A stretch of DNA of 43,677 bases, taken from Yinghuangia seranimata (GTDB taxonomy: Bacteria > Actinomycetota > Actinomycetes > Streptomycetales > Streptomycetaceae). Position 1 is the first letter of the stretch. Each line of letters opens with the position of its first letter. Shown piece after piece: positions 864-28,299 of this stretch. The position numbers and the translations under genes are program-made. The DNA lies in NCBI RefSeq assembly GCF_029953285.1, contig NZ_JASAOI010000039.1:1-43677 (forward strand), given 5' to 3'. A model generated the notes under the pieces. That model saw nothing but the letters and a program-made list of their open reading frames with translations. It had not been told where the DNA came from and did no database searches.

Positions 864-3518
864 TCAGCGGTAGCTGTGCGTCCCCGACTTCGCCTGGTAG
901 GTCCGGCCGTCGGGGAGGCGGATATCGGCCTCGGCTCCGGGCGGGACGGTCACGGTCAGGGTGAACCCGCCGTTCTCGTCGATACGCCAGGCCGAGACGA
1001 CGGTGCCGTAGGGGGACTCCAACTGCGCCTCGGCCTGGGTGAGTCCCCCTCCGGGGACCGGAGCGATCTCGAAGCGACGGAAGCCCGCGGCCTCCGGGTC
1101 GGGGTCGGCCGGAGGCCTGATGCCGGCAACGTAGTTGTGCAGGAACGAGACGACCGCGCCCTTGCTGTAGTGGTTCAGGGAGGCGTGGGCGACGCCGGCT
1201 TCGTCGATGCCGTTCCAGTGCTCCCAGATCGTGGTGGCGCCCCGGTCTACCATCGTGAGCCAGGACGGTTCGGTGTCCTGGAAGAGGAGTTCGTAGGCGA
1301 CGTCGAGGTGCCCGGTGTCGGCGAGCACGGGCAGCAGGTACGGCGTTGCCAGGAACCCCGTGCCCACGTGCGTGCCCGCGTCTCGGATCAGCGTGACGAG
1401 TCGATCTGCCGTGGCCGCCCGCAGGTCCTCGGGGACCAGACCGAACGCCAGCGCCCGGACGTACGTGGCCTGCGTATTCGGTGTCAGCGCGCCGTCGTCG
1501 GCGATGAACTCCGTGCGCCATGCCTCGAGTACCTGCTGCGCCAGCCGGGTGTACCGGTCGGCGTCGTCGCCGTGGCCGGTCAGCGCCGAGATCCGCGCGA
1601 GCAGCGAGGCCGAGCGGTACAGGTACGCGGTCGCCACCGCCCCGTGGTCCGCGGTGCGGAACGCGTTCTCGTCGACGCCGGGCTCGGTCCACTCGCCCCA
1701 GTGGAAGCCGGCGTCCCACAGGAACGCTTCGTGCGGCGCGGCCTCGGGGCGCGCCGCCACGCGGCTCAGATGACGCCGCGTGTGGGCGCGTTCGGCGGCG
1801 AAGTCGACCCACCGGACCATCATCGGCCTGAATTCGGTGAGCACGTCGAGGTCGCCGTACACCCGCCACAGCTCCCACGGCACGATCACCGACGCGTCGC
1901 CCCATGCGGACGAGCCGGCGAACATCTCGAGGATCTCGGTAGGCAGGTGCTGGACGGCGCGGCCGCCGGGGTCGGGCGCGAAGTTGGTGAGGCAGCCGTC
2001 GTCCCACTGGTCCGCGGCCAGGTCCCGCAGCCACTTGATGGAGAAGCCCGCCACGTCGTAGAGGAAGGCGGCGGTCGGGACATAGAGCATCCAGTCGCCG
2101 GTCCAGCCCGCCCGTTCACGCTGCGGGCAGTCGGTGGGGATGTCGCAGGCGTTGCCGCGGAAGCTCCAGTCGGCGATGTCGTGGAGGCGGTTGATCCGGT
2201 CGTCGCTGCACCGGAAGCGGCCGGTGCGCCGCAAGTCCGTATGCACGACGACACCGGTCAGGTCGTCCGGAGTGAGGGCGTCGCGCGCGCCGTCCACGCG
2301 GACGTACTGGAAGCCGTGTGTCGTGTGCCTCGGTTCGAACACCTCGCCGGGAAGGTCGCCCGAGATGACACGGTCCACCTGCCCGGCCGGCAGCGGTGCA
2401 CCGGTCTGGAAGTCCTCCCCGCGCAGATGGTCGGTCGTGACGTCGCCCTCGGCGTCGAGCGCTTCGCCGTGGGTCAGCGTCAGGTCGGCGGCGGCCGGGA
2501 CCGTGAGACGGACCCAGCCGTTGATGTTCTGCCCGAGATCGACGATCTGGCGGCCTGACCCGAGCACGGTCACCGCGCGCGGCCGGATCTCCTCGACGCG
2601 CCGCACGGGCGGCGCCGGGGAGGCCGTGAGTCGGGCGAAGTCGTCGTACAGGCCGCCCGTCGCCACTGTCGCCTTCGTCCAAGTGGAGGCGTCGAAGCCC
2701 GGTGCCGACCAGCCCGGCAGGACACGCCGCAGGTCATGGTGCTGGCCGTCCATGAGGTCGGCGGCGGTGATCTCGGCGGTCGACGTGGTCCACGCGTCGT
2801 CGGTTCCGAGGATGGTGACGGTGCCGTCCTCGTGCTCGGCCTGCAATTGGAAGAGGAGCGCCGTCCGTTCGCCGAAGCTGTCGGCGATGCGCATCGCACC
2901 GGTCCGGCCGCGGAACCACCCGTCGGACAACACCGCCCCCAAGGTGTTGGCCCCCTCGGTCAGGGACTCGGTGACGTCGTATGTCTGAACATGCAGGTTG
3001 TCGCGGTAGGCGGTGTAGCCGGGAGTCAGCTCCAGATCGCCGACGCGCACGCCGTTGAGGAAGGCCTCGTAGACCCCGTGCGCGGTGGCGTACAAGCGTG
3101 CACGGACCACGGGGGCGCCGAGGAGGAAGTCCCGACGGAGCAGGTGAGCCGGGCGGTCGCCGGCGGGCGGACGCGGCTCCGTGTCACGGGGCTCGATCCA
3201 CCGGGCAGACCAGTCGCCGGGCTCCAGCAACCCCGCCTCCCATGTCGACGGCTCGGACCACAGGCTCTCCCCGAGGTCGGTCCACACCTTCACCTGCCAC
3301 ACGACGCACTGCCCCGACCGCGTCGCGGGGCCGGTGTAGGGCACCAGGACGGAGCGATCGTCGTCGATCCGTCCCGAATCCCACGCGTTGGTGCGTAGCC
3401 GGTACGCAATCTGCCGGACAGCTCCGGCGGGGAGCAGCCAGGACAGTCGCGGGCTCCGGACGTGCAGCCCCAAGGGGTCCTCGAGGTGCTCGACGCGGAG
3501 GTGGTGCGGGGCGGCCAT
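864..3518 (-). CDS. GH78 alpha-L-rhamnosidase, cytoplasmic
   Basis: This 884-residue protein should remove terminal alpha-L-rhamnose from glycosides. It has the multidomain GH78 layout: N-terminal beta domains, then an (alpha/alpha)6 catalytic barrel. The family signature DCPQRERAGWTGDW starts at Asp463; Glu468 is the expected general acid. TTIWEHWNG carries Glu766, the expected catalytic base, followed by the LNHYSKGAV...VAGI segment typical of the family end. No signal peptide or lipobox is visible, so it probably acts on imported glycosides. The start at 3518 is preferred over an upstream start at 3617 because it has a TTGGAG ribosome binding site at good spacing and because homology begins at its MAAPHHLRVEHL. 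A LacI-type palindrome lies 41 bp upstream, linking it to the rhamnose operon near 28 kb. Confidence 0.95.
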   Translation of the reverse strand: MAAPHHLRVEHLEDPLGLHVRSPRLSWLLPAGAVRQIAYRLRTNAWDSGRIDDDRSVLVPYTGPATRSGQCVVWQVKVWTDLGESLWSEPSTWEAGLLEPGDWSARWIEPRDTEPRPPAGDRPAHLLRRDFLLGAPVVRARLYATAHGVYEAFLNGVRVGDLELTPGYTAYRDNLHVQTYDVTESLTEGANTLGAVLSDGWFRGRTGAMRIADSFGERTALLFQLQAEHEDGTVTILGTDDAWTTSTAEITAADLMDGQHHDLRRVLPGWSAPGFDASTWTKATVATGGLYDDFARLTASPAPPVRRVEEIRPRAVTVLGSGRQIVDLGQNINGWVRLTVPAAADLTLTHGEALDAEGDVTTDHLRGEDFQTGAPLPAGQVDRVISGDLPGEVFEPRHTTHGFQYVRVDGARDALTPDDLTGVVVHTDLRRTGRFRCSDDRINRLHDIADWSFRGNACDIPTDCPQRERAGWTGDWMLYVPTAAFLYDVAGFSIKWLRDLAADQWDDGCLTNFAPDPGGRAVQHLPTEILEMFAGSSAWGDASVIVPWELWRVYGDLDVLTEFRPMMVRWVDFAAERAHTRRHLSRVAARPEAAPHEAFLWDAGFHWGEWTEPGVDENAFRTADHGAVATAYLYRSASLLARISALTGHGDDADRYTRLAQQVLEAWRTEFIADDGALTPNTQATYVRALAFGLVPEDLRAATADRLVTLIRDAGTHVGTGFLATPYLLPVLADTGHLDVAYELLFQDTEPSWLTMVDRGATTIWEHWNGIDEAGVAHASLNHYSKGAVVSFLHNYVAGIRPPADPDPEAAGFRRFEIAPVPGGGLTQAEAQLESPYGTVVSAWRIDENGGFTLTVTVPPGAEADIRLPDGRTYQAKSGTHSYR

Positions 3519-3559
3519 GTGGGCTCCAAGGGTGGGGTGCGGGATCCAACAGCTGGAAC

Positions 3560-3571
3560 TGAATCGTTTCA
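3560..3571. promoter_or_regulatory. LacI-family operator candidate, TGAATCGTTTCA (rhamnosidase)
   Basis: This palindrome has 11 of 12 bases in common with the perfect TGAAACGTTTCA site before rhaI. It is identical to the site at 11429. It lies 41 bp upstream of the rhamnosidase start, where a repressor would block transcription. Confidence 0.65.
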
Positions 3572-3753
3572 TATGCATAACGCGGAGCCGATCAGCAGGC
3601 GCGTAGTTGTTACACAAAATATGCCGACGCCCCCATTCCGCTCCCCCGCCAAGGATCAGAACCTGGAGGAAAGCGCAAGTTCCGGCACTAGCGCGCGCAA
3701 GCTTCTGCGGCTACGCTCCCGGCACAGCCCCGGCAGTTAACGCACACGACACG

Positions 3754-3778
3754 TGAACCGTCCGAATGAATCGGTTCA
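3754..3778. promoter_or_regulatory. Inverted repeat TGAACCG-N11-CGGTTCA with embedded TGAATCGGTTCA
   Basis: Perfect 7-bp arms (3754-3760 and 3772-3778) are separated by 11 bases. The right arm is also half of TGAATCGGTTCA (3767-3778), a relative of the LacI-type site. It lies about 125 bp before the leader ORF of the MFS/ABC unit, in the 384-bp divergent region 3519-3902, which also holds the 3560 site and a GTTACAC box at 3609-3615. The rest of that region shows nothing recognisable. Whether the same LacI protein binds here is inference. Confidence 0.4.
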
Positions 3779-3902
3779 TACCCACGTGATCCTGCGGCAT
3801 CGCCTGACGCGCCGCAGCCCTCCCCCGAACAGGGGCCGGCGCATCGGAGCCCCACCCGCCGCCCGCTGATGTTCCGTCAGCACGTCCTTCGCGGAGATCC
3901 CC

Positions 3903-3953
3903 ATGCTGAAATGCACCCACCGCCCGCCACAGCCACAGGGGCCGAGCAGGTGA
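3903..3953 (+). CDS. Possible 16-residue leader peptide overlapping the MFS-ABC gene
   Basis: An ATG with the best ribosome binding site of this region (GCGGAG, 6 bases before it) opens a 16-codon frame, MLKCTHRPPQPQGPSR. It ends in TGA at 3951-3953, overlapping the GTG at 3950 in a GTGA junction, the usual geometry of translational coupling. The following large gene otherwise lacks a convincing ribosome binding site. The peptide resembles no known attenuator peptide, and its proline-rich end could slow ribosomes. It may simply be chance. Confidence 0.35.
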   Translation: MLKCTHRPPQPQGPSR

Positions 3954-6169
3954 GCGCGCCGAGCAACACCGTCGACGGCTCGGCGCCGTCCGCCGCGGGA
4001 CTCGCGGCCGGCCTGATCGACGCCGAGGCCGAGCGCCAGAAGCGGCAGGCGGAGTCGTCCCGCGACGTGCTGTTCGCCGACGAACTGCTGCCGGGTGTCG
4101 GCGACGAGCGGCTGTCGTTGCGCGCGGGGCTGGCCGCCGGGGGTTCGGCCACCTTCCTCACCTTGACCGCACTCGCCGCGATGGACGAGCTGGAGTCCGC
4201 GACGCTGGGCATCCTGGCACCTGACATCCGCGACGCGTTCGGCATGAGCGACGGCGCGATCGTCTTCATCTCCGCGGCCTCCGGCGCCTTCCTGGTCCTC
4301 GGCGCCCTGCCCATGGGGTGGCTCGCGGACCGCTGCCGTCGCAGCCGGGTCATCGGCTGGGCCGGGATCGCCTTCTCGGCGATGGTGTTCGCGTGCGGGC
4401 TCGCCGCCAACGCCTTCCTGTTCTTCCTTGCCCGGTTCGGCGTCGGGGTCGCCAAGTCCAGCACCCTGCCGGTGCACGGCTCGCTGAACGCCGACACCTA
4501 CCCCATCGGCGTCCGCGGCCGGCTGGCCACCATCAGCGCCGGCGCCGCCAGAACGGCGGGCGCGCTCAGCCCGCTCGCGGTCGGCGGGATCGCCACACTG
4601 GTCGGCGGCGGCAACGGCTGGCGCTGGCCCTTCCTCATCCTCGGACTGCCGTCGCTACTCGTGGCGGTGTGGGCCTTCCGACTCCCCGAACCGCCGCGCG
4701 GGCAACACGAAATGAAGTCGGTGCTGGGTGAAGTCGTACAGGACGCCAAGCCGATGCCGATCTCGGTGGAGGCGGCGTTCGCGAGGCTGATGCGGATCCG
4801 CTCCATCAAGAACTCGATCATCGCGTTCTCCGCCCTCGGCTTCAGCCTGTTCACCGGCGGAGTGCTCGGCAATCTGTGGGCCGAGGACCACTTCGGGATG
4901 TCCACGTTCGAACGCGGCGTCATGGGCTCGGTCACCGGGGCGTCGCTCCTCCTGGCGCTCCCTTTCGTCGGCCCGCGCTACGACCGTCTGTATCGCCGCG
5001 ACCCGTCGCGCGCCCTGGCGCTGCTCGGGTACCTGATCCTGCCGGGCGCCGTGCTGCTGCCGGTGCAGTGGTTCATGCCCAACGGCTACGCGTTCGCGAT
5101 CGCGGGCATCCCCTCAGCGGTGCTGTCGTCGGTCACGTTCGCGATGGTCGGCCCCGTGCTGTCCTCGGTGGTCCCGTTCCGGCTGCGTGGGCTGGGGAGC
5201 GCCCTGTCGGCCATCTACATCTTCTTCATCGGCGCGACCGGCGGCGCCCTGGTCTCCGGCCTCATCAGCAACGCCTACGACGCGCGCGTCGCGGTCCTGG
5301 TGGTCGGTGTCCCGTCCACGCTGGTCGGCGGCCTTCTGGTGGTGCGCAGCGCGGGCTTCATCAAGCACGACCTGTCCCTGGTGGTGCAGGAGCTGCGCGA
5401 GGAGCTCGACGAGCACGAACGGCAGGCGCAGGCCCCCGAGGACATCCCGGTGCTCCAGGTCAACAACGTCGATTTCTCCTACGGCCATGTGCAGACGCTG
5501 TTCGACGTCGGATTCGAGGTCAAGCGGGGCGAGACCCTCGCACTGCTCGGCACCAACGGCGCCGGCAAGTCCACGATCCTGAAGGTGATTTGCGGCCTCG
5601 GCACGCCCTCCCGCGGTGTGGTGCGCCTCAACGGCCGGACGATCACCTACGTCCCGCCGGAGCAACGCGGCGGCTACGGCGTGCATCTTCTGCCGGGCGG
5701 CAAGGGCGTGTTCCAGGACATGACGGTGCGCGAGAACCTGGAGATGGCCGGGTTTCGCATCCGCAGGGACATCGCCGACCGGGACCGGCGGTTCGCCTAC
5801 GTCCTCGACATGTTCCCCGACCTCGCGGGCCGTCAGGGGCAGTTGGCCGGCTCGATGTCCGGTGGGCAGCAGCAGATGCTCGCACTGGCCATGGTCCTCA
5901 TGCACGACCCCGAGGTGCTGCTGATCGACGAGCTGTCGCTCGGCCTGGCCCCGGTGGTCGTCCAGGATCTGCTGGCGATCATCGAGCGCCTCAAGGCCGA
6001 CGGCCTGACGATGGTGATCGTCGAGCAGTCGCTGAACATCGCCCTGGCGATCGCGGACCGCGCGGTGTTCCTGGAGAAGGGTCAGGTCCGCTTCCAGGGG
6101 CCTGCCCGCGAGCTCGCCGAGCGCGACGACCTCGCCCGCGCGGTCTTCCTCGGCAAGGAAGGCGGCTGA
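3950..6169 (+). CDS. MFS transporter fused to a LivF-type ABC ATPase
   Basis: This 739-residue fusion joins two unrelated transport modules. Roughly residues 60-480 are a 12-helix major facilitator domain, with the loop motif GWLADRCRRSR after helix 2 and R-GLGSALSAIY near the end. After a charged, probably coiled linker (EELREELDEHERQAQ-like), residues from about 500 are a LivF-class ATPase: Walker A GTNGAGKST near 533, signature SGGQQQ near 636, Walker B LLIDELSLGLAP, and the LivF-type IVEQS in place of a His switch. The next gene supplies LivH, LivM and LivG, so this ATPase is probably the missing LivF partner. The GTG at 3950 is preferred because it overlaps the leader stop; ATGs at 3869 and 3911 in the same frame are alternatives with weaker binding sites. 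The role of the MFS half (second substrate route, regulator or membrane anchor) is unknown. Confidence 0.85.
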   Translation: MSAPSNTVDGSAPSAAGLAAGLIDAEAERQKRQAESSRDVLFADELLPGVGDERLSLRAGLAAGGSATFLTLTALAAMDELESATLGILAPDIRDAFGMSDGAIVFISAASGAFLVLGALPMGWLADRCRRSRVIGWAGIAFSAMVFACGLAANAFLFFLARFGVGVAKSSTLPVHGSLNADTYPIGVRGRLATISAGAARTAGALSPLAVGGIATLVGGGNGWRWPFLILGLPSLLVAVWAFRLPEPPRGQHEMKSVLGEVVQDAKPMPISVEAAFARLMRIRSIKNSIIAFSALGFSLFTGGVLGNLWAEDHFGMSTFERGVMGSVTGASLLLALPFVGPRYDRLYRRDPSRALALLGYLILPGAVLLPVQWFMPNGYAFAIAGIPSAVLSSVTFAMVGPVLSSVVPFRLRGLGSALSAIYIFFIGATGGALVSGLISNAYDARVAVLVVGVPSTLVGGLLVVRSAGFIKHDLSLVVQELREELDEHERQAQAPEDIPVLQVNNVDFSYGHVQTLFDVGFEVKRGETLALLGTNGAGKSTILKVICGLGTPSRGVVRLNGRTITYVPPEQRGGYGVHLLPGGKGVFQDMTVRENLEMAGFRIRRDIADRDRRFAYVLDMFPDLAGRQGQLAGSMSGGQQQMLALAMVLMHDPEVLLIDELSLGLAPVVVQDLLAIIERLKADGLTMVIVEQSLNIALAIADRAVFLEKGQVRFQGPARELAERDDLARAVFLGKEGG

Positions 6170-6174
6170 CCACG

Positions 6175-9039
6175 ATGCAAATGCCAACCACCCAACTGCT
6201 GTTCGACGGCGCCGTCAACGGACTGGTCATCGGCCTGCTGGCGATGGGCATCGTGCTCGTGCACCGGTCATCCCGCGTCATCAACTTCGCGGTCGCCAAC
6301 ATGGGCCTGGTCGGATCAGTCCTGTTCGCCCTGCTGGTCGTGCGCTACCACGTGCCGTACTGGATCGCGTTGCTGGTCGCCCTCGCGGCCGGCACGGTGT
6401 TCGGGGCGATCGTCGACCTGGCCGTGGTGCGCCGGCTCTTCAACGCGCCGCGCGTGATCGTCCTGGTCGCCACCATCGGCGTCGCGCAACTGGCACTCAC
6501 CATCGTGACCGCCTATCCGGACCTCGACGACTACACCAGCGAGCACTACCCGGTCCCCTGGTCCGGTACGTGGTCGCCCGTCGACGACCTGGAGGTCAGC
6601 GGAGCCCAGCTGAGCATCCTCGTCGCCGTACCCGTCGCCGCGCTCGTGCTCAGTTGGTTCCTGGGCCGCACGGTGCTTGGCAAGACGGTCAAGGCGTCCG
6701 CGGGCAACCCCGAACTCGCCCGCCTCCAAGGCATCAGTCCGAAGATCGTCTCCACCGCCATATGGGCGCTCGCCGGACTGCTGGCCACGCTGTGCCTGAT
6801 CCTCATCTCGGCGCAGAACAAGTCGCTGACCCAGATCACCACGCTCGGGCCGACCACACTGCTCCGGGCGCTCGCGGCCGCGGTCATCGCCCGGATGGCG
6901 TCCTTCCGCATCGCGCTTGCCGCCGGCGTCGGACTCGGCCTGCTCCAGGCGTTCATCCAGTTCAACTGGCTCGACCAGCCCGGCCTGACCGACCTGGTCG
7001 TGCTGGCAATCGTGTTGGCCGCGGTCTTCGCGGTCAGCCGCGGCCGCGACACCGAGTCCTCCTCGTTCTCGTTCGCGCCGAAGGTCAAGCCCGTCCCCGA
7101 GCGGCTGCGCCAGGTCTGGTGGGTCCGCCACCTCGAACGGTCCGGACTGCTCCTGCTCGGGATCGTCGCGATCGTGCTGCCGCTCCTCGTCACCCAGCCG
7201 TCGCGCCACCTGCTCTACACGGTCATCCTGGCGTACGCCATCTGCGCGGCGTCGGTCACGGTTCTCACCGGTTGGGCGGGCCAACTTTCACTCGGGCAGA
7301 TGGCGTTCGCAGGTCTCGGTGCTTTGACGGCCGCGTCGCTCAACCGCGGGCTGCGTATCGAACTCGGCGACAGCATCTACAGCTTCCGCGGGCTCACGTT
7401 CCCGGCGGCGGTGCTGGTCGCGTCGTTGTTCACCGCGGCGCTCGCCGCGCTCGTCGGCGCCGGCGCCCTGCGGGTGCGCGGGCTGCTGCTGGCGGTGAGC
7501 ACGTTCGCCTTCGCGGTGGCCTGCGAGCAGTACCTGTACCGGCGCGACATCTTCCACGACCCGGGGACGAGTACCGCGTCGTTCCCGCGCAGCACGGTGT
7601 TCGGCATCGACGTGTCGACGCAGCGTGCCTACTACTACCTCGTCCTCGCCGTGCTGGTCGTGGTGCTGGTCGTGGTGGCCCGGCTGCGCCGGTCGGGCGT
7701 GGGCCGCACCACCATCGGCGTCAGGGACAACCCGGCCACCGCAGCTGCCTACACCGTGAGCGCCACCCGGGTGAAGCTGCGTGCCTTCGCGCTCGCCGGC
7801 GGCATCGCGGGGCTCGGCGGCGCGCTGCTGGCGGGCGCCGTGCAGACGGTGCCGTACGCGGACAAGTACTACCTGAGCCCCGACTCGCTGGCCCTGGTCT
7901 CGATCGTCGTGATCGGCGGCCTCGGATCGGTGTCGGGCTCGGTGCTCGGCGCGCTGTGGGTGATCGGTCTGCCGTCGTTCATGCCGGACAACAAGCTCGT
8001 GCCGCTGCTCACCTCGAGCCTCGGCCTGCTGGTCCTGCTGCTCTACTTCCCCGGCGGTCTCGTACAGATCGGCTACAGCGCCCGCGACGCGCTGCTCGCC
8101 TGGGCCGACAAGCGGCTGGGGTCCGAGCCCGCCGCCAAGGCGGCGACCGCGCCGCCGCGGGCCCTCACGCGCACCGCGCGCCCCCCGCTGCCGGAGGACA
8201 AGCCGGTGCTGGCAACCGCGGACGTGCGCGTGCGCTTCGGGGGCAAGGCCGCCGTCGACGGTGTGTCGCTCGAGGTTCGGCCGAACGAGATCGTCGGGCT
8301 GATCGGCACCAACGGCGCCGGCAAGTCGACGTTGATGAACGCCGTCGGCGGGTTCGTCCCGGCGAGCGGGGCCGTGGAGTTGCTGGGCCGCGACATCAGC
8401 AAGGCGGCCCCGGCCGCCAGGGCCCGGCTCGGTCTCGGCCGCACCTTCCAGGCCGCGACCCTGTTCCCCGAGCTGACCGTGCACGAGACCGTGCAGATCG
8501 CCCTGGAGGCCCGCGGTCGTACGGGCCTGCTGTCCACCGCGCTGCATCTTCCGCACACCTTCAAACGGGAGCGTGCCAAGCGGTCGGACGCGGACGACCT
8601 GATCGACTTCCTCGGGCTCGGGCGCTACGCCGACGCGTTCATCGGCGACCTGTCCACCGGCACCCGCCGCATCGTCGAACTCGCCGGACTGCTGGCGCTC
8701 GACGCGCGCGTCCTGTGCCTCGACGAACCCACCGCGGGCGTCGCGCAACGCGAGACCGAGGCGTTCGGCCCACTGCTCCACGAGATCCGCCGCGAACTCG
8801 GCGCGTCCATGCTGGTCATCGAACACGACATGCCGCTGATCATGGGCATCAGCGACCGCGTCTACTGCCTGGAGACCGGCCGCGTCATCGCCGCCGGCAC
8901 GCCGGACGCCGTCCGCAACGACCCCAAGGTCATCGCCAGCTACCTGGGCACGGACGAGCGCGCGATCGAACGCAGTGGAAGCGCGCCATCCGCCGCCGAC
9001 CAGAGCCGTACCTCGACCGAGGCCGTCGCGCCCGCGTGA
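6175..9039 (+). CDS. LivH-LivM-LivG fusion: ABC permease pair and ATPase in one chain
   Basis: This 954-residue protein carries three components of a branched-chain-amino-acid-type (HAAT) importer. Residues 1 to about 285 are a LivH-like permease (GLVIGLLAMGIVLVHRSSRVINFA). About 318-640 are LivM-like (TVLTGWAGQLSLGQMAFAG, a LivM hallmark, and AGLGGALLAG). About 678-930 are a LivG ATPase with Walker A GTNGAGKST near 712, GRTFQAATLFPELTV, a degenerate signature LSTGTRR near 826, Walker B LCLDEPTAGVAQ near 848 and the His switch IEHDMPLIM. Such systems move amino acids, amides, aromatic acids or other small acids; the substrate here is not evident. The ATG lies 5 bases after the preceding stop with a GGAAGG site inside it, so the two are cotranscribed. 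LivHMG fusions are common in actinobacteria. Confidence 0.9.
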   Translation: MQMPTTQLLFDGAVNGLVIGLLAMGIVLVHRSSRVINFAVANMGLVGSVLFALLVVRYHVPYWIALLVALAAGTVFGAIVDLAVVRRLFNAPRVIVLVATIGVAQLALTIVTAYPDLDDYTSEHYPVPWSGTWSPVDDLEVSGAQLSILVAVPVAALVLSWFLGRTVLGKTVKASAGNPELARLQGISPKIVSTAIWALAGLLATLCLILISAQNKSLTQITTLGPTTLLRALAAAVIARMASFRIALAAGVGLGLLQAFIQFNWLDQPGLTDLVVLAIVLAAVFAVSRGRDTESSSFSFAPKVKPVPERLRQVWWVRHLERSGLLLLGIVAIVLPLLVTQPSRHLLYTVILAYAICAASVTVLTGWAGQLSLGQMAFAGLGALTAASLNRGLRIELGDSIYSFRGLTFPAAVLVASLFTAALAALVGAGALRVRGLLLAVSTFAFAVACEQYLYRRDIFHDPGTSTASFPRSTVFGIDVSTQRAYYYLVLAVLVVVLVVVARLRRSGVGRTTIGVRDNPATAAAYTVSATRVKLRAFALAGGIAGLGGALLAGAVQTVPYADKYYLSPDSLALVSIVVIGGLGSVSGSVLGALWVIGLPSFMPDNKLVPLLTSSLGLLVLLLYFPGGLVQIGYSARDALLAWADKRLGSEPAAKAATAPPRALTRTARPPLPEDKPVLATADVRVRFGGKAAVDGVSLEVRPNEIVGLIGTNGAGKSTLMNAVGGFVPASGAVELLGRDISKAAPAARARLGLGRTFQAATLFPELTVHETVQIALEARGRTGLLSTALHLPHTFKRERAKRSDADDLIDFLGLGRYADAFIGDLSTGTRRIVELAGLLALDARVLCLDEPTAGVAQRETEAFGPLLHEIRRELGASMLVIEHDMPLIMGISDRVYCLETGRVIAAGTPDAVRNDPKVIASYLGTDERAIERSGSAPSAADQSRTSTEAVAPA

Positions 9040-9107
9040 CGCCGGGCCTGCTCCGGCGTCCCTCTGCCACCACCGAAGTTCCCCTTCACACCAGAAACGG
9101 ATCCGCC

Positions 9108-10415
9108 ATGACACCGCACCGCGCCAGACGCCGCGCCGTCCTGCTCCTCGCGACCGCCGCGGCCCTTGTCGTCACGGGCTGCACGGCCGAGAAGAAGGAC
9201 GACGCGAAGACCGGCTCCTCCGGCGCCCCCGCCGCACCGCCCGCGCCCAAGGTCGCCCCTGGCGTCACCGCGGACAGCATCAAGATCGGCATCACCTACC
9301 CCGACCTCGACTCGGTCAAGCAGTTCGTCAACATCGACCACGGCCCGTACGAGGCCGCCTACAACGCCCTGATCAAGAAGATCAACGACGCCGGCGGGAT
9401 CAACGGCCGGAAGATCGTGCCGGTGTTCGGCAAGATCAACCTGATCTCCCCGGCTGCCGCCCAGGAGACCTGCGTCAAGCTGACCCAGGACGAGAAGGTC
9501 TTCGCCGTCCTCGGCAACTTCAACGGCGACGAACCGCTGTGCTACGTGCAGACGAACAAGACCGCGGCGATCGGCGGCCAGCTCACCGCGAAGCGGTACG
9601 CGCAGGCCCAGGCCCCGTGGTTCAGCGACACCCGGGGCGGTGACGAAGTCGGGGACGGGATGGCGCTGTTCAACAAGGACAACGGCCTGGCCGGCAAGAA
9701 GGTCGCGGTGCTTTCGAACGTCAACGAGCAGGCGGTGATGAAGGACACCGTGATCCCGGCGCTGCAGAAGCTCGGCATCACCCCGGTCGAGACCGGAGTG
9801 CTCGACGCTCCTGCCACCGATGCCGCAGCCATCGGTCAGCAGACCGGCGTGTTCATCCAGAAGTTCCAGGCGTCCGGCGTCGACACCATCGTGGTCGTCG
9901 GCAGCATGGGCGCGTCCTTCCCGCAGGTGCTCGAGCAGACCAAGTACCGCCCCCGGTTGCTGTTCACCGACAACCTGCAGGTGCAGGCGTACGCCAACGA
10001 CAAGGGCAAGCACGACTTCACGACCCTCGCGAACGCCGCCGCACTCGGCCTGAACACGCTGTGGAGCGAGGCCGCGAACCAGGAGTGCATGAACACGGTC
10101 GAAGCAGCGCTGCCCGACTTCAAGGGCAAGCTGACCGTCGACCCGGCGTCGCTCCCCGCCGGAACACCGACGCCCCAGATCGCACCGAACGTGGCCTGCC
10201 GCAACCTCGCCCTCTTCAAGGCCATCGCCGACAAGGCGGGCAAGGACCTGAGCTACGAGACGTTCCAGAACGCCGGCTTCACGCTGGGCGCGTTCCAGGA
10301 CCCCGGCAACGTCGACAAGGCCACCTACGCCCAGGCGACCCCGCACGGCGCGATCCCGGCCCGACTGTTCACGTTCGACACGGCGACGCAGAAGTTCGCG
10401 GTCTCCGCGTCCTGA
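9108..10415 (+). CDS. HAAT/LivK-type substrate-binding lipoprotein
   Basis: The protein has 435 residues. It begins with an Arg-rich n-region and a hydrophobic core ending in the lipobox VVTGC with Cys25, so it should be a lipid-anchored extracellular receptor. A Lys/Ala/Pro-rich tether follows, then a type I periplasmic-binding fold: SIKIGITYPDLDSV, NAGGINGRKIVPVFG and a region typical of LivK/amide-binding proteins. It lies 68 bp after the LivHMG fusion in the same direction and must be its binding subunit. The ligand is unknown. The start is set by the signal peptide; its ribosome binding site is weak. A strong hairpin at 10436-10466 ends the unit. Confidence 0.9.
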   Translation: MTPHRARRRAVLLLATAAALVVTGCTAEKKDDAKTGSSGAPAAPPAPKVAPGVTADSIKIGITYPDLDSVKQFVNIDHGPYEAAYNALIKKINDAGGINGRKIVPVFGKINLISPAAAQETCVKLTQDEKVFAVLGNFNGDEPLCYVQTNKTAAIGGQLTAKRYAQAQAPWFSDTRGGDEVGDGMALFNKDNGLAGKKVAVLSNVNEQAVMKDTVIPALQKLGITPVETGVLDAPATDAAAIGQQTGVFIQKFQASGVDTIVVVGSMGASFPQVLEQTKYRPRLLFTDNLQVQAYANDKGKHDFTTLANAAALGLNTLWSEAANQECMNTVEAALPDFKGKLTVDPASLPAGTPTPQIAPNVACRNLALFKAIADKAGKDLSYETFQNAGFTLGAFQDPGNVDKATYAQATPHGAIPARLFTFDTATQKFAVSAS

Positions 10416-16490: not shown

Positions 16491-17774
16491 TCACAGCGTC
16501 GCGCCGTTGCCCCGCGCGATCGTGCCCAGCCACTCCAGGCTCGGCTTGGGCGTGCGCTGGAACGTCGTGCGGTCGACCGCGATCAGGCCGAACGTCATCG
16601 CGTATCCCGAGTGCCACTCGAAGTTGTCCAGCAGGCTCCAGTGCAGATATCCGCGCACATCGACGCCGTCGGCCAGGGCCTGGCGCACACCTTCCAACGC
16701 GGTGCGCGTGTAGGCGATGCGGTCCGCGTCGTCCGCGGTGGCCATGCCGTTCTCGGTGACGACGACGGGGACCTGCGCGACCTCGGCGGCCCAGCGCACC
16801 GAGTGGCCGAGTGCCTGCGGGTACACCTCCCAGCCGGTCTGGCTGCGCGGGGTGTCGTCCGGAACCGGGACCGGGCCCATGGGCCCCATGACCTCGCGGG
16901 TGTAGGTCTGCACGCCGACGAAGTCGTCGCCGCGCGACACCTCGAGGAACTGCGAACCGCCTGCCTCCCTCAGCTGCCGCGTGAGGTTCTCGCCTCCGGG
17001 GGCCGCCTGGAAATCGACGAGGGCGAGCGTCCACCCGACCTTCGCCGCGGGATTTGCGTCCTTCACCGCGGCGCGGCCCTGTCGGTGCGCCTCCTTGGTG
17101 TTCTCGATCGCCACGGTGCTGAAGATCCGCATCGGGCTTCCGAGTTCGACGGTGTCCTCGGCTCCGCCCAGCCGGACCGCGAACGCGCGGGTGACCGTTG
17201 GATCCACGCGGGTGATCGCGCCGAAGGCCTCCATGGCCGCCATGGGGAGCATCCCGCCGAGACTGGCCATCGCGCCGAGGTTGGGCTCGTTGAGCGTGCA
17301 GTACCAGGTGACCGCGTCACCGAAGTGCGCCGCGACCACTCCGCAGTAGCGGGCGAACAGTTTCGGGGCCTCCGGGTTGTTCCAGGCGCCTTCCCGGGCG
17401 AACCATCCCGGCGTGGTGAAGTGCTGCAGAGTCACCATCGGGGTGACCCCCGCCTGGTGACATGCCTCCACCACGCTCAGGTAGTGGTCGAGCTCGGCAC
17501 GCGAGAACACCCCCGGCTCCGGCTCGATCCGCGACCACTCGACACTGAACCGGTAGGTTCCCAGTCCGGCGCCGGCAAGCAGCGCGATGTCCTCGGCAAA
17601 GCGGTGGTAGCTGTCGCACGCGTCGCCGGACGGTTCCACGAACGGCGAGCCCGGCACGTGCTCCAGCGCCCAGTGGTCGCTGAGCGTGTTGTTGCCCTCG
17701 ATCTGATGGCCGGCGGTCGCGGCGCCCCACAGGAAACCCTCGGGAAAGACCGAAGAGGCGTCGGAGGAAACCAT
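16491..17774 (-). CDS. GH1 beta-glucosidase
   Basis: The protein has 427 residues. It shows FPEGFLWGAATAGHQIEG at the start, TLNEP with acid/base Glu163, VVVTENG with nucleophile Glu341, and the LLDNFEWHSGY and FGLIAVD segments of GH1. It hydrolyses terminal beta-D-glucosides (or galactosides/fucosides) and lacks a signal peptide, so it works on imported glycoside. The ATG at 17774 has GGAAGG 8 bases upstream; the longer frame to 18032 would run through the operator. The LacI-type palindrome at 17827-17838 and a -10/-35 pair in the same arrangement as at rhaI put it in the rhamnose regulon. Together with the rhamnosidase it could strip a rhamnosyl-glucoside such as a rutinoside or neohesperidoside; this is inference. 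Confidence 0.95.
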   Translation of the reverse strand: MVSSDASSVFPEGFLWGAATAGHQIEGNNTLSDHWALEHVPGSPFVEPSGDACDSYHRFAEDIALLAGAGLGTYRFSVEWSRIEPEPGVFSRAELDHYLSVVEACHQAGVTPMVTLQHFTTPGWFAREGAWNNPEAPKLFARYCGVVAAHFGDAVTWYCTLNEPNLGAMASLGGMLPMAAMEAFGAITRVDPTVTRAFAVRLGGAEDTVELGSPMRIFSTVAIENTKEAHRQGRAAVKDANPAAKVGWTLALVDFQAAPGGENLTRQLREAGGSQFLEVSRGDDFVGVQTYTREVMGPMGPVPVPDDTPRSQTGWEVYPQALGHSVRWAAEVAQVPVVVTENGMATADDADRIAYTRTALEGVRQALADGVDVRGYLHWSLLDNFEWHSGYAMTFGLIAVDRTTFQRTPKPSLEWLGTIARGNGATL

Positions 17775-17826
17775 GTACTGCGCCTTCCAGACATCGGGAG
17801 CACGGGGGCGGCCCGCAAACCCGGAT

Positions 17827-17838
17827 TGAAACGTTTCG
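17827..17838. promoter_or_regulatory. LacI-family operator candidate, TGAAACGTTTCG (GH1/GPH operon)
   Basis: Contains the perfect core GAAACGTTTC (17828-17837), identical to the rhaI operator core, 52 bp before the GH1 start. Confidence 0.75.
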
Positions 17839-17848
17839 ATCAGCCGCC

Positions 17849-17877
17849 AAGCTAGGCCATGAAACCTGGCAGGGCAA
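17849..17877 (-). promoter_or_regulatory. Predicted GH1 promoter
   Basis: On the minus strand TTGCCC (-35, 17877-17872) is followed after 17 bases by TAGCTT (-10, 17854-17849), with the operator 10 bases further on. The same -10 hexamer, spacer length and distance to the operator occur at rhaI. Confidence 0.45.
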
Positions 17878-17943
17878 GGTTTTCTGGCGGACCGCGGCAC
17901 GGCCACTGCCGGCGTCAGCGGCCGGCCCTCCCGAACCGTTGAC

Positions 17944-17956
17944 CATTTAGCGTAAC
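17944..17956. repeat. CATTTAGCGTAAC box, shared with 36318
   Basis: This 13-base string occurs identically upstream of the GH53-like gene and upstream of the amidohydrolase (36318-36330). The 310-bp divergent region 17775-18084 otherwise holds only the GH1 operator and promoter and nothing clear for the GH53-like gene. It may be an activator or repressor half-site. Confidence 0.35.
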
Positions 17957-18084
17957 GAGTACATGATTTGACGGCCTGCGCGGCAGGGGCGTGCGCGGCC
18001 ACCGACGACTGTGCGGTATGCCGCCGTCCCACCTGCGGATTTCCCGCGCGGCCCCCACTCGCCGAGCCTGAAGATGCGGATCAC

Positions 18085-20982: not shown

Positions 20983-22415
20983 GTGGTGCCTCCGGGTGTG
21001 TCGCGGTGCTGCCACCAGGTGCGGAAGGACTCCGCCGGCAGGGCAGGGAGATCGCGGGTCGCGCTCCAGGCCTTGCCCCAGCCGGGCAGCGGCACCTTGC
21101 GCGGGTGCACGGCGCGGGTGCGGACGGCGGCGCGTTGCAGGGCGGTGTAGCGCTTCGGGTCGCGCATGACCCAGCCGGCGGCACGGAGGGCTGCGCGTTC
21201 GACGACATGGCCGCGCTGCTCGGTGACCTTCTCGCGCAGGTGCACCAGGACTTCGGGGATGTCGATGGCGACCGGGCAGACCTCGTAGCACGCCCCGCAC
21301 AGGGACGAGGCGTAGGGCAGGGATGCGTCGATCTCGCTGGTGGTGCCGCGGAGTTGCGGGGTGAGGATGGCGCCGATCGGGCCGGGGTAGACCGAGCCGT
21401 ACGCGTGCCCGCCCGCGCGCTCGTACACCGGGCAGACGTTGAGGCAGGCAGAGCAGCGGATGCAGCGCAGCGTCTGGCGCCCGACCTCGTCGGCGAGGAT
21501 CTTGGTGCGCCCGTTGTCGAGGAGTACGAGGTGGAACTCGCGCGGCCCGTCGCCGTCGGTCACACCGGTCCAGGTGGACGTGTACGGGTTCATTCGTTCG
21601 GCGGTCGACGAGCGCGGCAGCAGTTGCAGGAACACCTCGAGGTCTCGCCATGTGGGGACGACCTTTTCGATCCCGACGACCGAGATCAGCGTCTCGGGAA
21701 GGGTGAGGCACATTCGTCCGTTGCCTTCGGATTCGACGACGACGAGCGTTCCGGTTTCGGCGACGAGGAAGTTCGCGCCGGAGACCGCGACTTTGGCGCG
21801 CAGGAACTTCTCGCGCAGGTGCAGCCGTGCCGCCTCGGCGAGTTCGCGAGGTTCGTCGCTCATGCCCTCGGGTGCGGGGATGCCCCACTCCCCCATGGTC
21901 TTGCGGAAGATGTCGCGGATCTCGGTGCGGTTGCGATGGATCGCCGGGACGAGGATGTGCGACGGGCGATCCTCGCCGAGCTGCACGATCAGTTCGGCCA
22001 GGTCGGTCTCGTACGCGGTGATCCCGACTTCGGCAAGCGCCTCGTTGAGGCCGATCTCCTGGGTGGCCATCGACTTGATTTTGACGACCTCGGTTTCGCC
22101 GGTGGCGCGCACGAGGTCGGCGACGATGCGGTTCGCCTCGTCGGCGTCGGCGGCCCAGTGCACTTGTCCCCCGGCCGCGGTGACCGCGGCCTCCGCCTGT
22201 TCGAGGTAGTGGTCGAGGTGCCGCAGCGTCTGGTCCTTGACGGCGGCGCCCGCTGCGCGGAGCCCCGCCCAGTCGTCGAGTTCGGCGACGGCTGCGGCGC
22301 GGCGGTCGCGAATGGTGTGCGTTGCGTGCCGCAGATTGCGGCGCAGCGTGGTGTTCCGCGTCGCGTCCCGTGCCGCAGCCGGGAAAGCCGGCATGCCCAG
22401 CGGTACGGCGTTCAT
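20979..22415 (-). CDS. lutB: LutB, iron-sulfur subunit of L-lactate oxidation
   Basis: The protein has 478 residues. An N-terminal LUD-type domain (VVKIKSMATQEIGLNEAL, SGANFLVAETGTLVVVE) is followed by a ferredoxin-like region with CIRCSACLNVCPVY from Cys318 and CGACYEVCPVAIDIP from Cys373, giving two 4Fe-4S sites. It passes electrons from lactate oxidation. Its ATG overlaps the lutA stop (ATGA) and its stop overlaps the lutC start, so all three subunits are translationally coupled. The domain order matches the canonical family. Confidence 0.95.
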   Translation of the reverse strand: MNAVPLGMPAFPAAARDATRNTTLRRNLRHATHTIRDRRAAAVAELDDWAGLRAAGAAVKDQTLRHLDHYLEQAEAAVTAAGGQVHWAADADEANRIVADLVRATGETEVVKIKSMATQEIGLNEALAEVGITAYETDLAELIVQLGEDRPSHILVPAIHRNRTEIRDIFRKTMGEWGIPAPEGMSDEPRELAEAARLHLREKFLRAKVAVSGANFLVAETGTLVVVESEGNGRMCLTLPETLISVVGIEKVVPTWRDLEVFLQLLPRSSTAERMNPYTSTWTGVTDGDGPREFHLVLLDNGRTKILADEVGRQTLRCIRCSACLNVCPVYERAGGHAYGSVYPGPIGAILTPQLRGTTSEIDASLPYASSLCGACYEVCPVAIDIPEVLVHLREKVTEQRGHVVERAALRAAGWVMRDPKRYTALQRAAVRTRAVHPRKVPLPGWGKAWSATRDLPALPAESFRTWWQHRDTPGGTT

Positions 22416-23185
22416 CGGTGCGCTCCCGTCCGGGCCCACATCGCACCCTCCGGATCGGTCTCGGTGGCGGCGAGGATCTCGGCGATGTGCAGCGTGCGGA
22501 TCGCGCCCTTGCGGCGGCTGATCATGCCGCCGAGGTGCATGAGGCACGAGTTGTCGGCGGCGCACAGCACGTCGGCGCCGGTGGACTCCGCGTTGCGGAG
22601 CTTGTCGGCGCCCATGGCTGCGGAAACGTCCGGGTTCTTGACGGCGAACGTGCCGCCGAAGCCGCAGCATTCCTCGGCCCCGGGCAGGTCGACGAGTTCG
22701 AGCCCGCGGACGTTCCGCAGCAGCGTGGTGGGCCGGTCGCCGAGCCGCATCAGGCGCAGCGAATGGCAGGTGGGGTGGTAGGCGACGCGGTGCGGGAAGT
22801 ACGCGCCGACGTCGGTCACTTGGAGGACGTCCACGAGGAACTCGGTGAGCTCGTACACCTTGGGCATGACCTGCGCGACGGCGTCGGCCAACCCTGGGTC
22901 GCCGGAGCGTGCGGCCGCCCGGGGGTGGTTGTCGCGGATCATCGCGCCGCACGACCCCGACGGGGTCACGACGGCGTCGTAGCCGGCGAAGGTCTCCGCG
23001 AACCCGCGCACCAGTGGCTCCACCTGGCGCCCGTAGCCGGTGTTCCAGTGCATCTGGCCGCAGCAGGTCTGGGCGAGCGGGAAGTCGACGTCGCAGCCGA
23101 GGCGTTCGAGCAGGGCGACGGTCGCCTGGCCGGTGCGCGGGTACAACGTGTCGTTCACGCAGGTGAGGAACAGTCCCACACGCAT
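22412..23185 (-). CDS. lutA: LutA, CCG-domain subunit of L-lactate oxidation
   Basis: This 257-residue protein has two cysteine-rich CCG domains: FLTCVND...QTCCGQMHWNTG and the second YHPTCHSLR...EECCGFGGTFAVK, with SGSCGAM between them. Such domains bind Fe-S clusters in LutA, GlcF and heterodisulfide reductases. AAGGAG precedes the ATG at 9 bases, only 30 bp after rhaB ends, so lactate oxidation is part of the rhamnose operon. No lldP-type lactate permease lies nearby, which fits internal lactate from rhamnose rather than external lactate. Confidence 0.95.
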   Translation of the reverse strand: MRVGLFLTCVNDTLYPRTGQATVALLERLGCDVDFPLAQTCCGQMHWNTGYGRQVEPLVRGFAETFAGYDAVVTPSGSCGAMIRDNHPRAAARSGDPGLADAVAQVMPKVYELTEFLVDVLQVTDVGAYFPHRVAYHPTCHSLRLMRLGDRPTTLLRNVRGLELVDLPGAEECCGFGGTFAVKNPDVSAAMGADKLRNAESTGADVLCAADNSCLMHLGGMISRRKGAIRTLHIAEILAATETDPEGAMWARTGAHR

Positions 23186-23215
23186 GGGTGGGGTCTCCTT
23201 GATGGTCGGGGCGGG

Positions 23216-24703
23216 TCAGTGGGCGCGGCGCGCGGCCAGTCGCTGCGCGGCAGCGTCCCAGATACGGGTGTCGCCCGGCAGGTACGTGCGCAGTTGCTGC
23301 GTGCGGCGGATCAGTGCCCGCAGGTCGCCGAGGCTGCCGTGGACCACCTCGTGGGCCCGGGCCTGCACGAGTATGTTGCCGAGCGCGGCGGCCTCTACCG
23401 GCCCCGCGACCACCGGCAGGCCACAGGCGTCCGCGGTGGCCTGGCACAGCAGGGCGTTCTGCGCTCCGCCGCCGACGATGTGGACCGTGTCCACACCGCG
23501 TCCGGACAGGTGCTGCGCGTCGGCGATCGCCTCGCGGTGGGCCAGCGCCAGGCTGTCGAAGATGCACCGGACGAACTCGGCGGGGGTTTCGGGCTCCGGG
23601 TCTCCGACTTGCCTGCACGCCTCGGCAATGCGCCGGGGCATGTCGCCGGGCGCGAGAAAGCCGGGATCGCCAGCGTCGACGATCGAGCGGAGGGGTGGCA
23701 CGTCGGCGGCCGCCGTGAGCAGGTCGGCCAGGTCCTGCGGTCGGCCCTGCTGGGCCCAGTGCCGCATGCACTCCTGCAGCAGCCAGTGGCCCATGATGTT
23801 GCGCAGGTAGCGGATCGTGCCGTCGACGCCGAGCTCGTTGGTGAAGTTGGCGCGTCGGCTGTCCTCGGTGCGTACGGGGGCGTCGAGTTCGAGGCCGACG
23901 AGCGACCAGGTGCCGCTGGAGATATAGGCGAATCGGGTGCCCTCAGCCGGGACGCCGACGACGGCCGACGCCGTGTCGTGGGAGCCGACCGCGGTCACCT
24001 CGACCGGCCCGGACAGGCCCGTTTCGGCCAGCACGTCGTCGCGCAGGAAGCCTGCGTGGTCGCCGGGCCTGCGCAGTGGCGGGAACAAGGCTGTGTCGAT
24101 GCCTAGGCGCTTGGCCAGGTCGCCGGCCCAGCGCCCGGTGGCCGGGTCGAGGAGCTGGGTGGTGGAGGCGTTGGTGACCTCGGTGCCGGCCTGGCCGGTC
24201 AGCCAGAACGCGAGCAGGTCCGGGATCAGCAGCGCCCGGCGCGCCGCGGCGAACTGGGGCGTGTCGCGGGCGGCGACGAGTTGGTGGACGGTGTTGAAAG
24301 GCGCGTGCTGGATGCCGGTCGCGGCGTACAGCTCGGCGGCGGGCACCACGTCGAACACACCCTCAGGTACGCCGTCGGTGCGCGCGTCCCGGTAGTGCAC
24401 CGGGTTGCCGAGGAGCGCGCCGGAGGCGTCAAGCAGGCCGAAGTCCACGGCCCACGAGTCGATGCCAACGCTCGCTATCCGCCCGGCCTCCTGGCCTGCC
24501 GCGCGCAGTCCGTCGACCATCCCTGCGTACAGGTTGAGGATGTCCCAGTGCAGCACGCCGCCGACCCTGACCGGGGTGTTGGGGAAGCGGTGGACCTCGG
24601 TCAGGTCGACGGTGTCGTGACCGACCCGGCCGACGATCACGCGTCCGCTGGACGCCCCGAGGTCCACTGCGGCGAAGGCTGCGGGCTGGTCGGGCTTGGA
24701 CAT
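23216..24703 (-). CDS. rhaB: L-rhamnulokinase (FGGY family)
   Basis: This 495-residue FGGY kinase phosphorylates L-rhamnulose at C1 with ATP. Evidence: VDLGASSGRVIVG at the N-terminus, GIDSWAVDFGLLD, the GSHDTASAV phosphate loop of the RhaB branch, YISSGTWSLVGLE, and VGGGAQNALLCQ near the C-terminus. Length and motifs fit RhaB rather than xylulo- or glycerol kinases. It is the third gene of the operon, 121 bp after rhaEW; that gap contains a strong hairpin that may tune kinase and lut expression relative to the upstream genes. The start has a moderate CGAGG site. Confidence 0.95.
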   Translation of the reverse strand: MSKPDQPAAFAAVDLGASSGRVIVGRVGHDTVDLTEVHRFPNTPVRVGGVLHWDILNLYAGMVDGLRAAGQEAGRIASVGIDSWAVDFGLLDASGALLGNPVHYRDARTDGVPEGVFDVVPAAELYAATGIQHAPFNTVHQLVAARDTPQFAAARRALLIPDLLAFWLTGQAGTEVTNASTTQLLDPATGRWAGDLAKRLGIDTALFPPLRRPGDHAGFLRDDVLAETGLSGPVEVTAVGSHDTASAVVGVPAEGTRFAYISSGTWSLVGLELDAPVRTEDSRRANFTNELGVDGTIRYLRNIMGHWLLQECMRHWAQQGRPQDLADLLTAAADVPPLRSIVDAGDPGFLAPGDMPRRIAEACRQVGDPEPETPAEFVRCIFDSLALAHREAIADAQHLSGRGVDTVHIVGGGAQNALLCQATADACGLPVVAGPVEAAALGNILVQARAHEVVHGSLGDLRALIRRTQQLRTYLPGDTRIWDAAAQRLAARRAH

Positions 24704-24752
24704 CGATGGACCTCGGCAATCGTCTCGGTTCAGGTGGTTCGTGTGTTCGCAG

Positions 24753-24798
24753 CCGTGCCGCTCCCTGGCGAACCCTCATACGCCGGGGAGCGGCACGG
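24753..24798 (-). terminator. Long hairpin inside the rha operon (rhaEW-rhaB gap)
   Basis: CCGTGCCGCTCCC (24753-24765) pairs perfectly with GGGAGCGGCACGG (24786-24798). After one mismatch a second 4-bp stem (GGCG/CGCC) encloses a 10-base loop. No T-run follows on the minus strand and no promoter is obvious before rhaB, so it may be a partial terminator, attenuator or mRNA-stabilising element within the operon. Confidence 0.55.
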
Positions 24799-24824
24799 AC
24801 GGCCTTCCGTTTCGCTGGTGCGAC

Positions 24825-26876: not shown

Positions 26877-26928
26877 GAGGTGTGTCCCTTGGGTCGGTAG
26901 GAAAGGTGGATCGGATCGGGAGCGCTGG

Positions 26929-28095
26929 TCAGGCGCCCCAGCCGGCCTGGGAGCCGCCGACACGCTCGGCCTTGATGCGCTCGGCGTAGCTCGACGCGGC
27001 GTAGGCGGCCATCGGGTCCGCCGCCAGGCCCAGCTCTTCGCGCAGGTCGGCCAGCAGCGGGCGCACATCGGTGTTGTAGGCGTCCATCAGCACCGCGTTC
27101 GCGCCGAGCACGTCACCCGACTGCTGAGCGGCGGCCAGCGCGTCCGCATCGACCAGCAGCGCCTTGGCGGTCGCCTCCTGGACGTTCATCACCGAGCGGA
27201 TCTGGCCGGGGATCTTCGGCTCGATGTTGTGGCACTGGTCGAGCATGAACGCGACCTCGGTGGCCGCTTCCAGCCCGCCGCCGCGCACGACCTCGTGCAT
27301 GATGCGGAACAGCTGGAACGGGTCCGCCGCTCCGACCATCAGGTCGTCGTCGGCGTAGAACCGCGAGTTGAAGTCGAACGCGCCCAGCTTTCCCTCACGC
27401 AGCAGGAACGCGACGATGAACTCGATGTTCGTGCCCGGCGCGTGGTGCCCGGTGTCGACGACGACCTTGGCCCGCTCCCCCAACTTGAGGCAGTGGGCGT
27501 ACGCCGTGCCCCAGTCCGGGACATCGGTCGTGTAGAACGCCGGCTCGAAGAACTTGTACTCCAGGATCATCCGTTGCTCGCCGGTCAGCCGCGTGTACAC
27601 CTCGGCCAGCGCCTCGGCCAGCCGGTCCTGGCGGGCCCGGATGTCGTCCTGCCCCGGGTAGTTCGTACCGTCCGAGAACCACAGCTTCAGGTCCCGTGAG
27701 CCGGTCGCGTCCATGATGTCGACGCACTCCAGCAGGTGGTCGGTCGCCTTGCGGCGGATCCGCGGGTCGGGGTTGGTCACCGAGCCGAGCATGTAGTCGT
27801 CGTCCTGGAAGACATTGGAGTTGATCGCGCCGATACGCACGCCCAGACCCTCTGCGTGCTTGGCCAGCGCGGCGTAGTCGTCGACCTTGTCCCACGGGAT
27901 GTGCAGCGAGACGGACGGGGCGCCACCGGTGAACGCGTGCACCTGAGCCGCGTCCGCCAGCTTCTCGAACGGGTCGCGCGGCACCCCCTGCTGCGCGAAG
28001 ACCTTGAACCGCGTCCCCGAGTTCCCGTACGCCCAGGAGGGCGTCTCTATCCGCTGGGTCTTCAGCGCGGCACGCACCGCGGCCGTGGATGCCAT
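26929..28095 (-). CDS. rhaI: L-rhamnose isomerase, RhaI (Streptomyces-type) TIM-barrel
   Basis: This 388-residue sugar isomerase belongs to the RhaI subtype of actinobacteria and rhizobia rather than the E. coli RhaA type. It interconverts L-rhamnose and L-rhamnulose. Metal-site segments are visible: WFSDGTNYPGQ, EYKFFEPAFY, VVDTGHHAPGTN and AFDFNSRFYADDDLMVG. The ATG at 28095 has GGAG 5 bases upstream, and N-terminal homology begins shortly after. It is first in the operon. Upstream lie a perfect LacI palindrome (28130-28141) and a promoter with a consensus TTGACA, so repression by the divergent LacI protein and release by a rhamnose-derived inducer is likely. Confidence 0.95.
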   Translation of the reverse strand: MASTAAVRAALKTQRIETPSWAYGNSGTRFKVFAQQGVPRDPFEKLADAAQVHAFTGGAPSVSLHIPWDKVDDYAALAKHAEGLGVRIGAINSNVFQDDDYMLGSVTNPDPRIRRKATDHLLECVDIMDATGSRDLKLWFSDGTNYPGQDDIRARQDRLAEALAEVYTRLTGEQRMILEYKFFEPAFYTTDVPDWGTAYAHCLKLGERAKVVVDTGHHAPGTNIEFIVAFLLREGKLGAFDFNSRFYADDDLMVGAADPFQLFRIMHEVVRGGGLEAATEVAFMLDQCHNIEPKIPGQIRSVMNVQEATAKALLVDADALAAAQQSGDVLGANAVLMDAYNTDVRPLLADLREELGLAADPMAAYAASSYAERIKAERVGGSQAGWGA

Positions 28096-28129
28096 CTCAA
28101 CTCCATGTTCTGAGCTGCCGTGAACGCAA

Positions 28130-28141
28130 TGAAACGTTTCA
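28130..28141. promoter_or_regulatory. Perfect LacI-family operator, TGAAACGTTTCA (rhaI)
   Basis: A perfect 12-base palindrome with the central CG typical of LacI-family sites. It starts 34 bp before rhaI, just downstream of the predicted transcription start. It is the best copy of the motif repeated at 3560, 11429 and 17827. Confidence 0.85.
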
Positions 28142-28142
28142 A

Positions 28143-28165
28143 TTTCGTGTAAGCTATCCACGAAA
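28143..28165. repeat. Inverted repeat TTTCGTG-N9-CACGAAA overlapping the rhaI -10 region
   Basis: Perfect 7-bp arms at 28143-28149 and 28159-28165. Its left part TTTCGTGTAAGC recurs exactly at 32916-32927, before the CoA ligase. It could be a second operator in the rhaI/lacI divergent promoter. Confidence 0.4.
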
Positions 28166-28179
28166 ACATGGACTGTCAA
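28151..28179 (-). promoter_or_regulatory. Predicted rhaI promoter
   Basis: On the minus strand a consensus -35 TTGACA (28179-28174) and TAGCTT (28156-28151) are 17 bases apart. The LacI palindrome begins 10 bases beyond the -10, a classic repressor position. Confidence 0.6.
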
Positions 28180-28274
28180 CGACTCCGCCCAGAACCGAAC
28201 ATCGACGCGAGAGCAGGGCATCCATGGGAGATCCAGCCGGGCGCCTACTATGTCGCTACCAGGAAGCGGGACAC

Positions 28275-28287: not shown

Positions 28288-28299
28288 GGGGCGGCACAC

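Follow-up and report, generated by a model that had tools for sequence, protein, structure and literature searches.

A Liv-type importer cassette of Yinghuangia seranimata in which the LivF ATPase is fused to a Spinster-like MFS domain

The window, the whole stretch of 43,677 nucleotides of Yinghuangia seranimata that was analysed (contig NZ_JASAOI010000039.1), carries a Liv-type ABC importer whose four core subunits (LivH, LivM, LivG, and LivF) are spread over two chains, with the receptor as a third gene and with LivF joined to the C terminus of an MFS carrier. This architecture recurs within the genome and in other actinobacteria. Our reading of the whole, which we hold tentatively and at somewhat less than an even chance, is a conserved hybrid transporter that tethers a Liv importer for amphipathic glycosides to an MFS domain handling a related compound.

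The cassette and its relatives

The MFS-LivF gene (3869-6169, forward strand, 766 aa) could start equally well at the ATG at 3869 or the GTG at 3950. Pfam placed MFS_1 at residues 108-446 (114 bits against a cut-off of 33.4) and ABC_tran at residues 546-688 of the same frame. The MFS domain with its linker (residues 82-525; 4112-5443) was taken from alignments of 5 and 25 relatives, and the LivF-type ATPase domain (5450-6166) from the ABC_tran match. A gap of five bases separates the TGA stop (6167-6169) from the ATG at 6175 of the second gene (6175-9039, 954 aa), whose chain contains two BPD_transp_2 stretches, ABC_tran, and BCA_ABC_TP_C, that is LivH, LivM, and LivG. A receptor of the Peripla_BP_6 family follows (9108-10415); as we read its sequence, the N terminus appears lipobox-like, as expected of a lipoprotein. 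The three genes form one tight cluster, all on the forward strand, and the layout proposed in a first, sequence-only reading was thus recovered in each of its parts. In NCBIfam the two ATPases matched LivF and LivG best, both under the curated cut-off. A giant single chain from the open frame 4876-9039 was considered and rejected: the frame upstream of 6175 overlaps MFS-LivF, and no larger fusion is read there because homologous LivH matches start at the equivalent place. AlphaFold2 models, made of single chains only, gave a mean pLDDT of 83.5 and a pTM of 0.78 for MFS-LivF, with the MFS part modelled as helical, and 77.6 and 0.77 for LivHMG.

The genome holds five MFS-LivF genes and five LivHMG chains, paired one to one. 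A receptor follows four of the five cassettes (the window's own and three recognised by homology), the fifth lying close to a contig end. Genome contigs were scanned with the five MFS domains, using two exact peptide patterns that miss divergent members, and 55 loci were confirmed, 25 of the actinobacterial type and 30 of a distant MFS type. The 25 named loci come from Yinghuangia, Embleya, Streptomyces, Frankia, Parafrankia, Pseudofrankia, Catenulispora, Acidimicrobiia, and others, the closest being Yinghuangia soli (93% in the MFS). MFS and LivF share one frame in 24 of them, LivH-M-G is equally whole in 22 (the other three are cut by contig ends), and a receptor homologue adjoins 19. The distant MFS proteins (L050-L079, mostly Acetobacteraceae) were rejected as relatives of the fusion, with about 25-33% identity mostly in the N-terminal part and no LivF at the MFS. 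Matches to the MFS family, the fusion itself having been read in only some of these genomes, were obtained in 15 of 396 genomes sampled from the phylum Actinomycetota (E <= 1e-40), in 7 of 150 genomes of the family, and, for the actinobacterial class to which genome G374 belongs, in 79 of 296 genomes (E <= 1e-38); rows of this class intermix with Acidimicrobiia MAGs in the MFS tree. Recurrence in the genome, the phylum, and the class rules out a sequencing error or a one-off accident, so the assembly is real, and the suspicion that related fusions exist in other actinobacteria holds for several genera. Two loci deserve mention for their records. A complete type I cassette lies on a 5.7 Mb linear replicon of Embleya sp. 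NBC_00888 filed as a plasmid (NZ_CP108785.1, L138), and another lies on a contig of 3808 bases titled as a Bifidobacterium breve MAG (CAMDCC010000291.1, L034); a contig of equal length in G655, a genome of G374's class, shows the same layout as the latter, which is probably a mislabelled MAG.

Three arrangements were found: type I, as in the window, with MFS-LivF and LivHMG as two chains; type II, with LivHM and an MFS-LivF-LivG chain (15 loci in the tree set); and type III, with MFS-LivF, LivHM, and LivG apart (L175-L177). The MFS precedes LivF in every chain read, while gene order varies, LivHMG coming first in L192. By coordinates, LivHMG lies within 4.5 kb downstream of 56 of the 66 top-ranking MFS matches from G374's class, a search in which only three candidates were scored per genome. 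Five of the remaining ten sit on contigs that break off within the gene or directly behind it. The other five were read: LivHMG is present in L197 and L198, and also in L196, where LivM is split over two frames; L199 shows LivH before the contig ends, and in L200 the contig ends earlier. In the reverse test an MFS match was present upstream of 49 of 54 LivHMG matches of at least 900 bits. Among the other five, L188 and L189 run into LivF at the contig end and two, not read, start less than 700 bases from the contig start; in the fifth, the LivHMG fusion of L187 (5389-8499) has neither LivF nor MFS within about 5 kb upstream.

MFS-LivF is likely to be the second ATPase of LivHMG, because all three arrangements combine a single LivF with a single LivG. 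Beside the 28 type I loci that show LivF, a second LivF match was not found. The proposal that this is the only LivF holds at that local scale; ordinary LivF genes do exist elsewhere in the genome, and LivHMG might pair with one of them instead. Synteny and the changing fusions make it likely that the MFS-LivF and LivHMG chains form one complex.

The link between MFS and LivF is not absolute: some relatives lack the MFS, and a few are solo MFS proteins. LivHMG occurs with a lone LivF in L191 and L195, and the whole Liv core is found as LivH-M-F-G in a single open frame without MFS in L202 (4906-9816), L203 (747-4391), and L204 (2101-5868). Solo MFS relatives (L113, L115, L169, and L170) sit inside the MFS tree, and divergent MFS domains are joined to LivF in L190 and L194. 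As to whether MFS-LivF always neighbours LivHMG, the 56 of 66 matches speak for it, but in view of these exceptions it does not hold as a strict rule. Loss, gain, or exchange of the MFS has happened repeatedly. A quick tree of 58 rows places the fused LivF domains in one clade (SH-aLRT 93), together with MFS-free members and a single separate LivF from a different operon; on trees that are quick searches carrying SH-aLRT support only, all MFS-LivF fusions may or may not share a single origin.

State of the two halves and likeness to Spinster

Walker A, SGG, and DE are present in 90 of 90 fused LivF domains passing a 200-residue filter, the window's copy included, in agreement with the earlier remark that the ATPase motifs look intact. 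One sequence outside the 90, L023 (3481-5619, on the window genome's contig C1), has a LivF half that is short of about 31 residues, the signature and Walker B among them; this may be a real loss or an assembly fault. In six pairs dN/dS was 0.076-0.227 for MFS, 0.072-0.154 for LivF, and 0.110-0.261 for LivHMG. Both halves of the fusion are thus under purifying selection; a decayed MFS is rejected on these values, in line with the earlier remark that the fusion is not obviously decayed. Mean pairwise protein identity was 0.63 and 0.57 for the MFS halves and 0.72 for LivF.

By sequence and by profile, the nearest solved relative of the MFS domain is the Spinster protein HnSpns (PDB 6e8j); HnSpns and SPNS1 were its top two PDB profile matches, with only the N-terminal half aligned. 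According to PMC9440201, Glu129 of HnSpns is an intracellular proton switch that engages Arg42, and the freed Arg42 binds substrate. The TM4 Arg and the motif A Asp are invariant among 29 type I sequences, in which the equivalent of Asp41 is Asp in 25, Glu in 2, Thr in 1, and Ser in 1, that of Arg42 is Glu in 26 and Asn in 3, and that of Glu129 is Lys in 26, Glu in 2, and Arg in 1. Across 74 type I and II sequences we counted Asp at the Asp41 site in 68, Glu at the Arg42 site in 62, Lys or Arg at the Glu129 site in 66, and the TM4 Arg in 66; the three type III sequences are without the Asp, Glu, and Arg, and one of them keeps the Lys. The MFS domain therefore resembles Spns in mostly keeping the equivalents of Asp41, Arg122, and motif A, but differs in that Arg42 is mostly Glu, Glu129 is mostly Lys or Arg, and an ATPase is attached. 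We did not assign the domain to the Spns family because the switch residues differ. The Glu129/Arg42 pair looks charge-swapped, which speaks for a change in proton coupling or in the charge of the substrate, and not for decay. Low dN/dS, the conserved motif A, and the cavity residues favour a working domain over decay, and would fit a carrier and a sensor alike.

Neighbourhood and possible function

A divergently oriented GH78 alpha-L-rhamnosidase (864-3617, reverse strand), one of two GH78 in the genome, lies beside the cassette, and a GH1 glycosidase (16491-18080, reverse strand) is more distant. The window also encodes a GH53-like protein, two alpha/beta hydrolases, and an MFS_2 sugar carrier. 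The stretch 22412-29340, with an FGGY kinase, an aldolase-SDR fusion, an isomerase-like barrel under the Pfam cut-off, a CCG protein, and a LacI regulator, looks like a cluster for L-rhamnose catabolism. Just upstream of a second cassette, L021 contains a 1210-aa open frame with a GH3 domain (3583-7215), in which we read an alpha/beta hydrolase-like stretch before the GH3.

In tblastn searches, relatives of GH1/2/3/78 were detected on 24 of 45 type I stretches (16/25, 1/4, and 7/16) and on 2 of 8 type II stretches, and on none of 2 solo MFS loci, 10 other LivF-like loci of the genome, and 30 distant MFS loci; these counts are partly circular, the queries coming from type I loci and near copies being counted. 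The count for the genome itself is free of this circularity: it has 17 genes of these families (10 GH3, 5 GH1, 2 GH78, and no GH2), and four of them are located no more than about 8 kb from a cassette, at two of the five cassettes. From their density we estimate that about 0.2 would be expected there, and none lies near the other three. In a crude N-terminal signal test of 12 glycosidases, the strongest hydrophobic stretch was weaker than in the lipoprotein control, which suggests that these enzymes may be cytoplasmic. With moderate confidence, we take amphipathic glycosides to be the substrate class.

The hybrid transporter that we propose builds on what was observed directly, namely the architecture, its recurrence, the selection on both halves, and the glycosidase neighbourhood. 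LivH-M-G would supply both permeases and one ATPase, and LivF would arrive on the C terminus of the Spinster-like MFS, so that one MFS domain would sit next to every assembled importer in the membrane. The lipoprotein would pass on an amphipathic glycoside, the ATP cycle would import it, and the cytoplasmic glycosidases would cleave it. The MFS might then move a related amphipathic compound, perhaps the aglycone, outwards, a movement that the LivF ATPase might influence; for the direction of MFS transport and any coupling to the ATPase our confidence is weak. Counting against the hybrid are the lower conservation of MFS than of LivF, the proton-switch Glu that is not kept, the MFS-free and solo MFS relatives, and the lack of a glycosidase by tblastn at 21 of 45 type I loci. 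The stronger version, a coupled import-export machine in which one ATP cycle via LivF powers the uptake of glycoside through LivHM and also gates the MFS to expel the aglycone, seems to us improbable.

Among the 74 sequences of types I and II, 66 have Lys or Arg in place of the switch Glu, and some importer relatives do without the MFS; this could also mean that the MFS no longer transports and serves as a membrane anchor or as a substrate sensor tuning the LivF ATPase. We consider this unlikely, yet not negligible: purifying selection on the MFS resembles that on LivF, the Asp and Arg of motif A are largely kept, as is the cavity Asp, and an anchor would hardly need a whole MFS fold. We are just as doubtful of two independent, co-inherited transporters, in which the MFS would carry the same or a related substrate alone and the fusion would just equalise amounts with no mechanical coupling. 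An intact MFS domain, the solo MFS relatives, and the separate MFS_2 sugar carrier nearby agree with such independence, whereas the join of MFS to LivF persists while LivG and LivHM swap partners. That the fusion is a neutral by-product of gene adjacency, or an artefact of annotation or sequencing, would accommodate the LivF deletion in one cassette of the genome and the MAG copy with MFS and LivF in different frames (L168), but this reading is largely refuted by recurrence in many genomes and families and by purifying selection, and we give it very little credence.

ABC transporters and MFS carriers are regarded as distinct classes, each drawing on its own source of energy. Here the two are bound covalently, in a join that is conserved even as the remaining subunits swap partners, and the possibility that an ABC ATPase acts on a secondary carrier becomes open to direct test. 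The join may also account for the way in which these bacteria obtain amphipathic glycosides and rid themselves of what is left of the molecule.

Comparison with known transporters

No solved structure joining an MFS fold to an ABC ATPase was found among the PDB matches listed, which were driven by the ATPase. Likewise, a search of open-licence papers for MFS-ABC ATPase fusions, including passages of PMC13188901 and PMC3924187, found none. PMC3924187 does name a sensor kinase-MFS fusion family (TC 2.A.1.34), which likewise joins an MFS to an unrelated cytoplasmic domain, although the partner there is a kinase and not an ABC ATPase; the likeness is drawn from the description of that family. Like one-chain ABC exporters, MFS-LivF has a membrane domain followed by an ATPase, and its matches to them come through the ATPase; unlike them, it has a different membrane fold, and whole-chain overlays gave an rmsd of about 19 Å or more and a TM of about 0.28. 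With the Liv/HAAT importers (LivFGHM and a receptor) the cassette shares BPD_transp_2 permeases, LivF/LivG-type ATPases, and a Peripla_BP_6 receptor. It departs from them in that the four separate core subunits are condensed into two chains, one with an added MFS on LivF, and in that the NCBIfam cut-offs for LivF and LivG are missed; its neighbourhood points to glycosides, the substrate expected of a Liv importer being a branched-chain or related amino acid.
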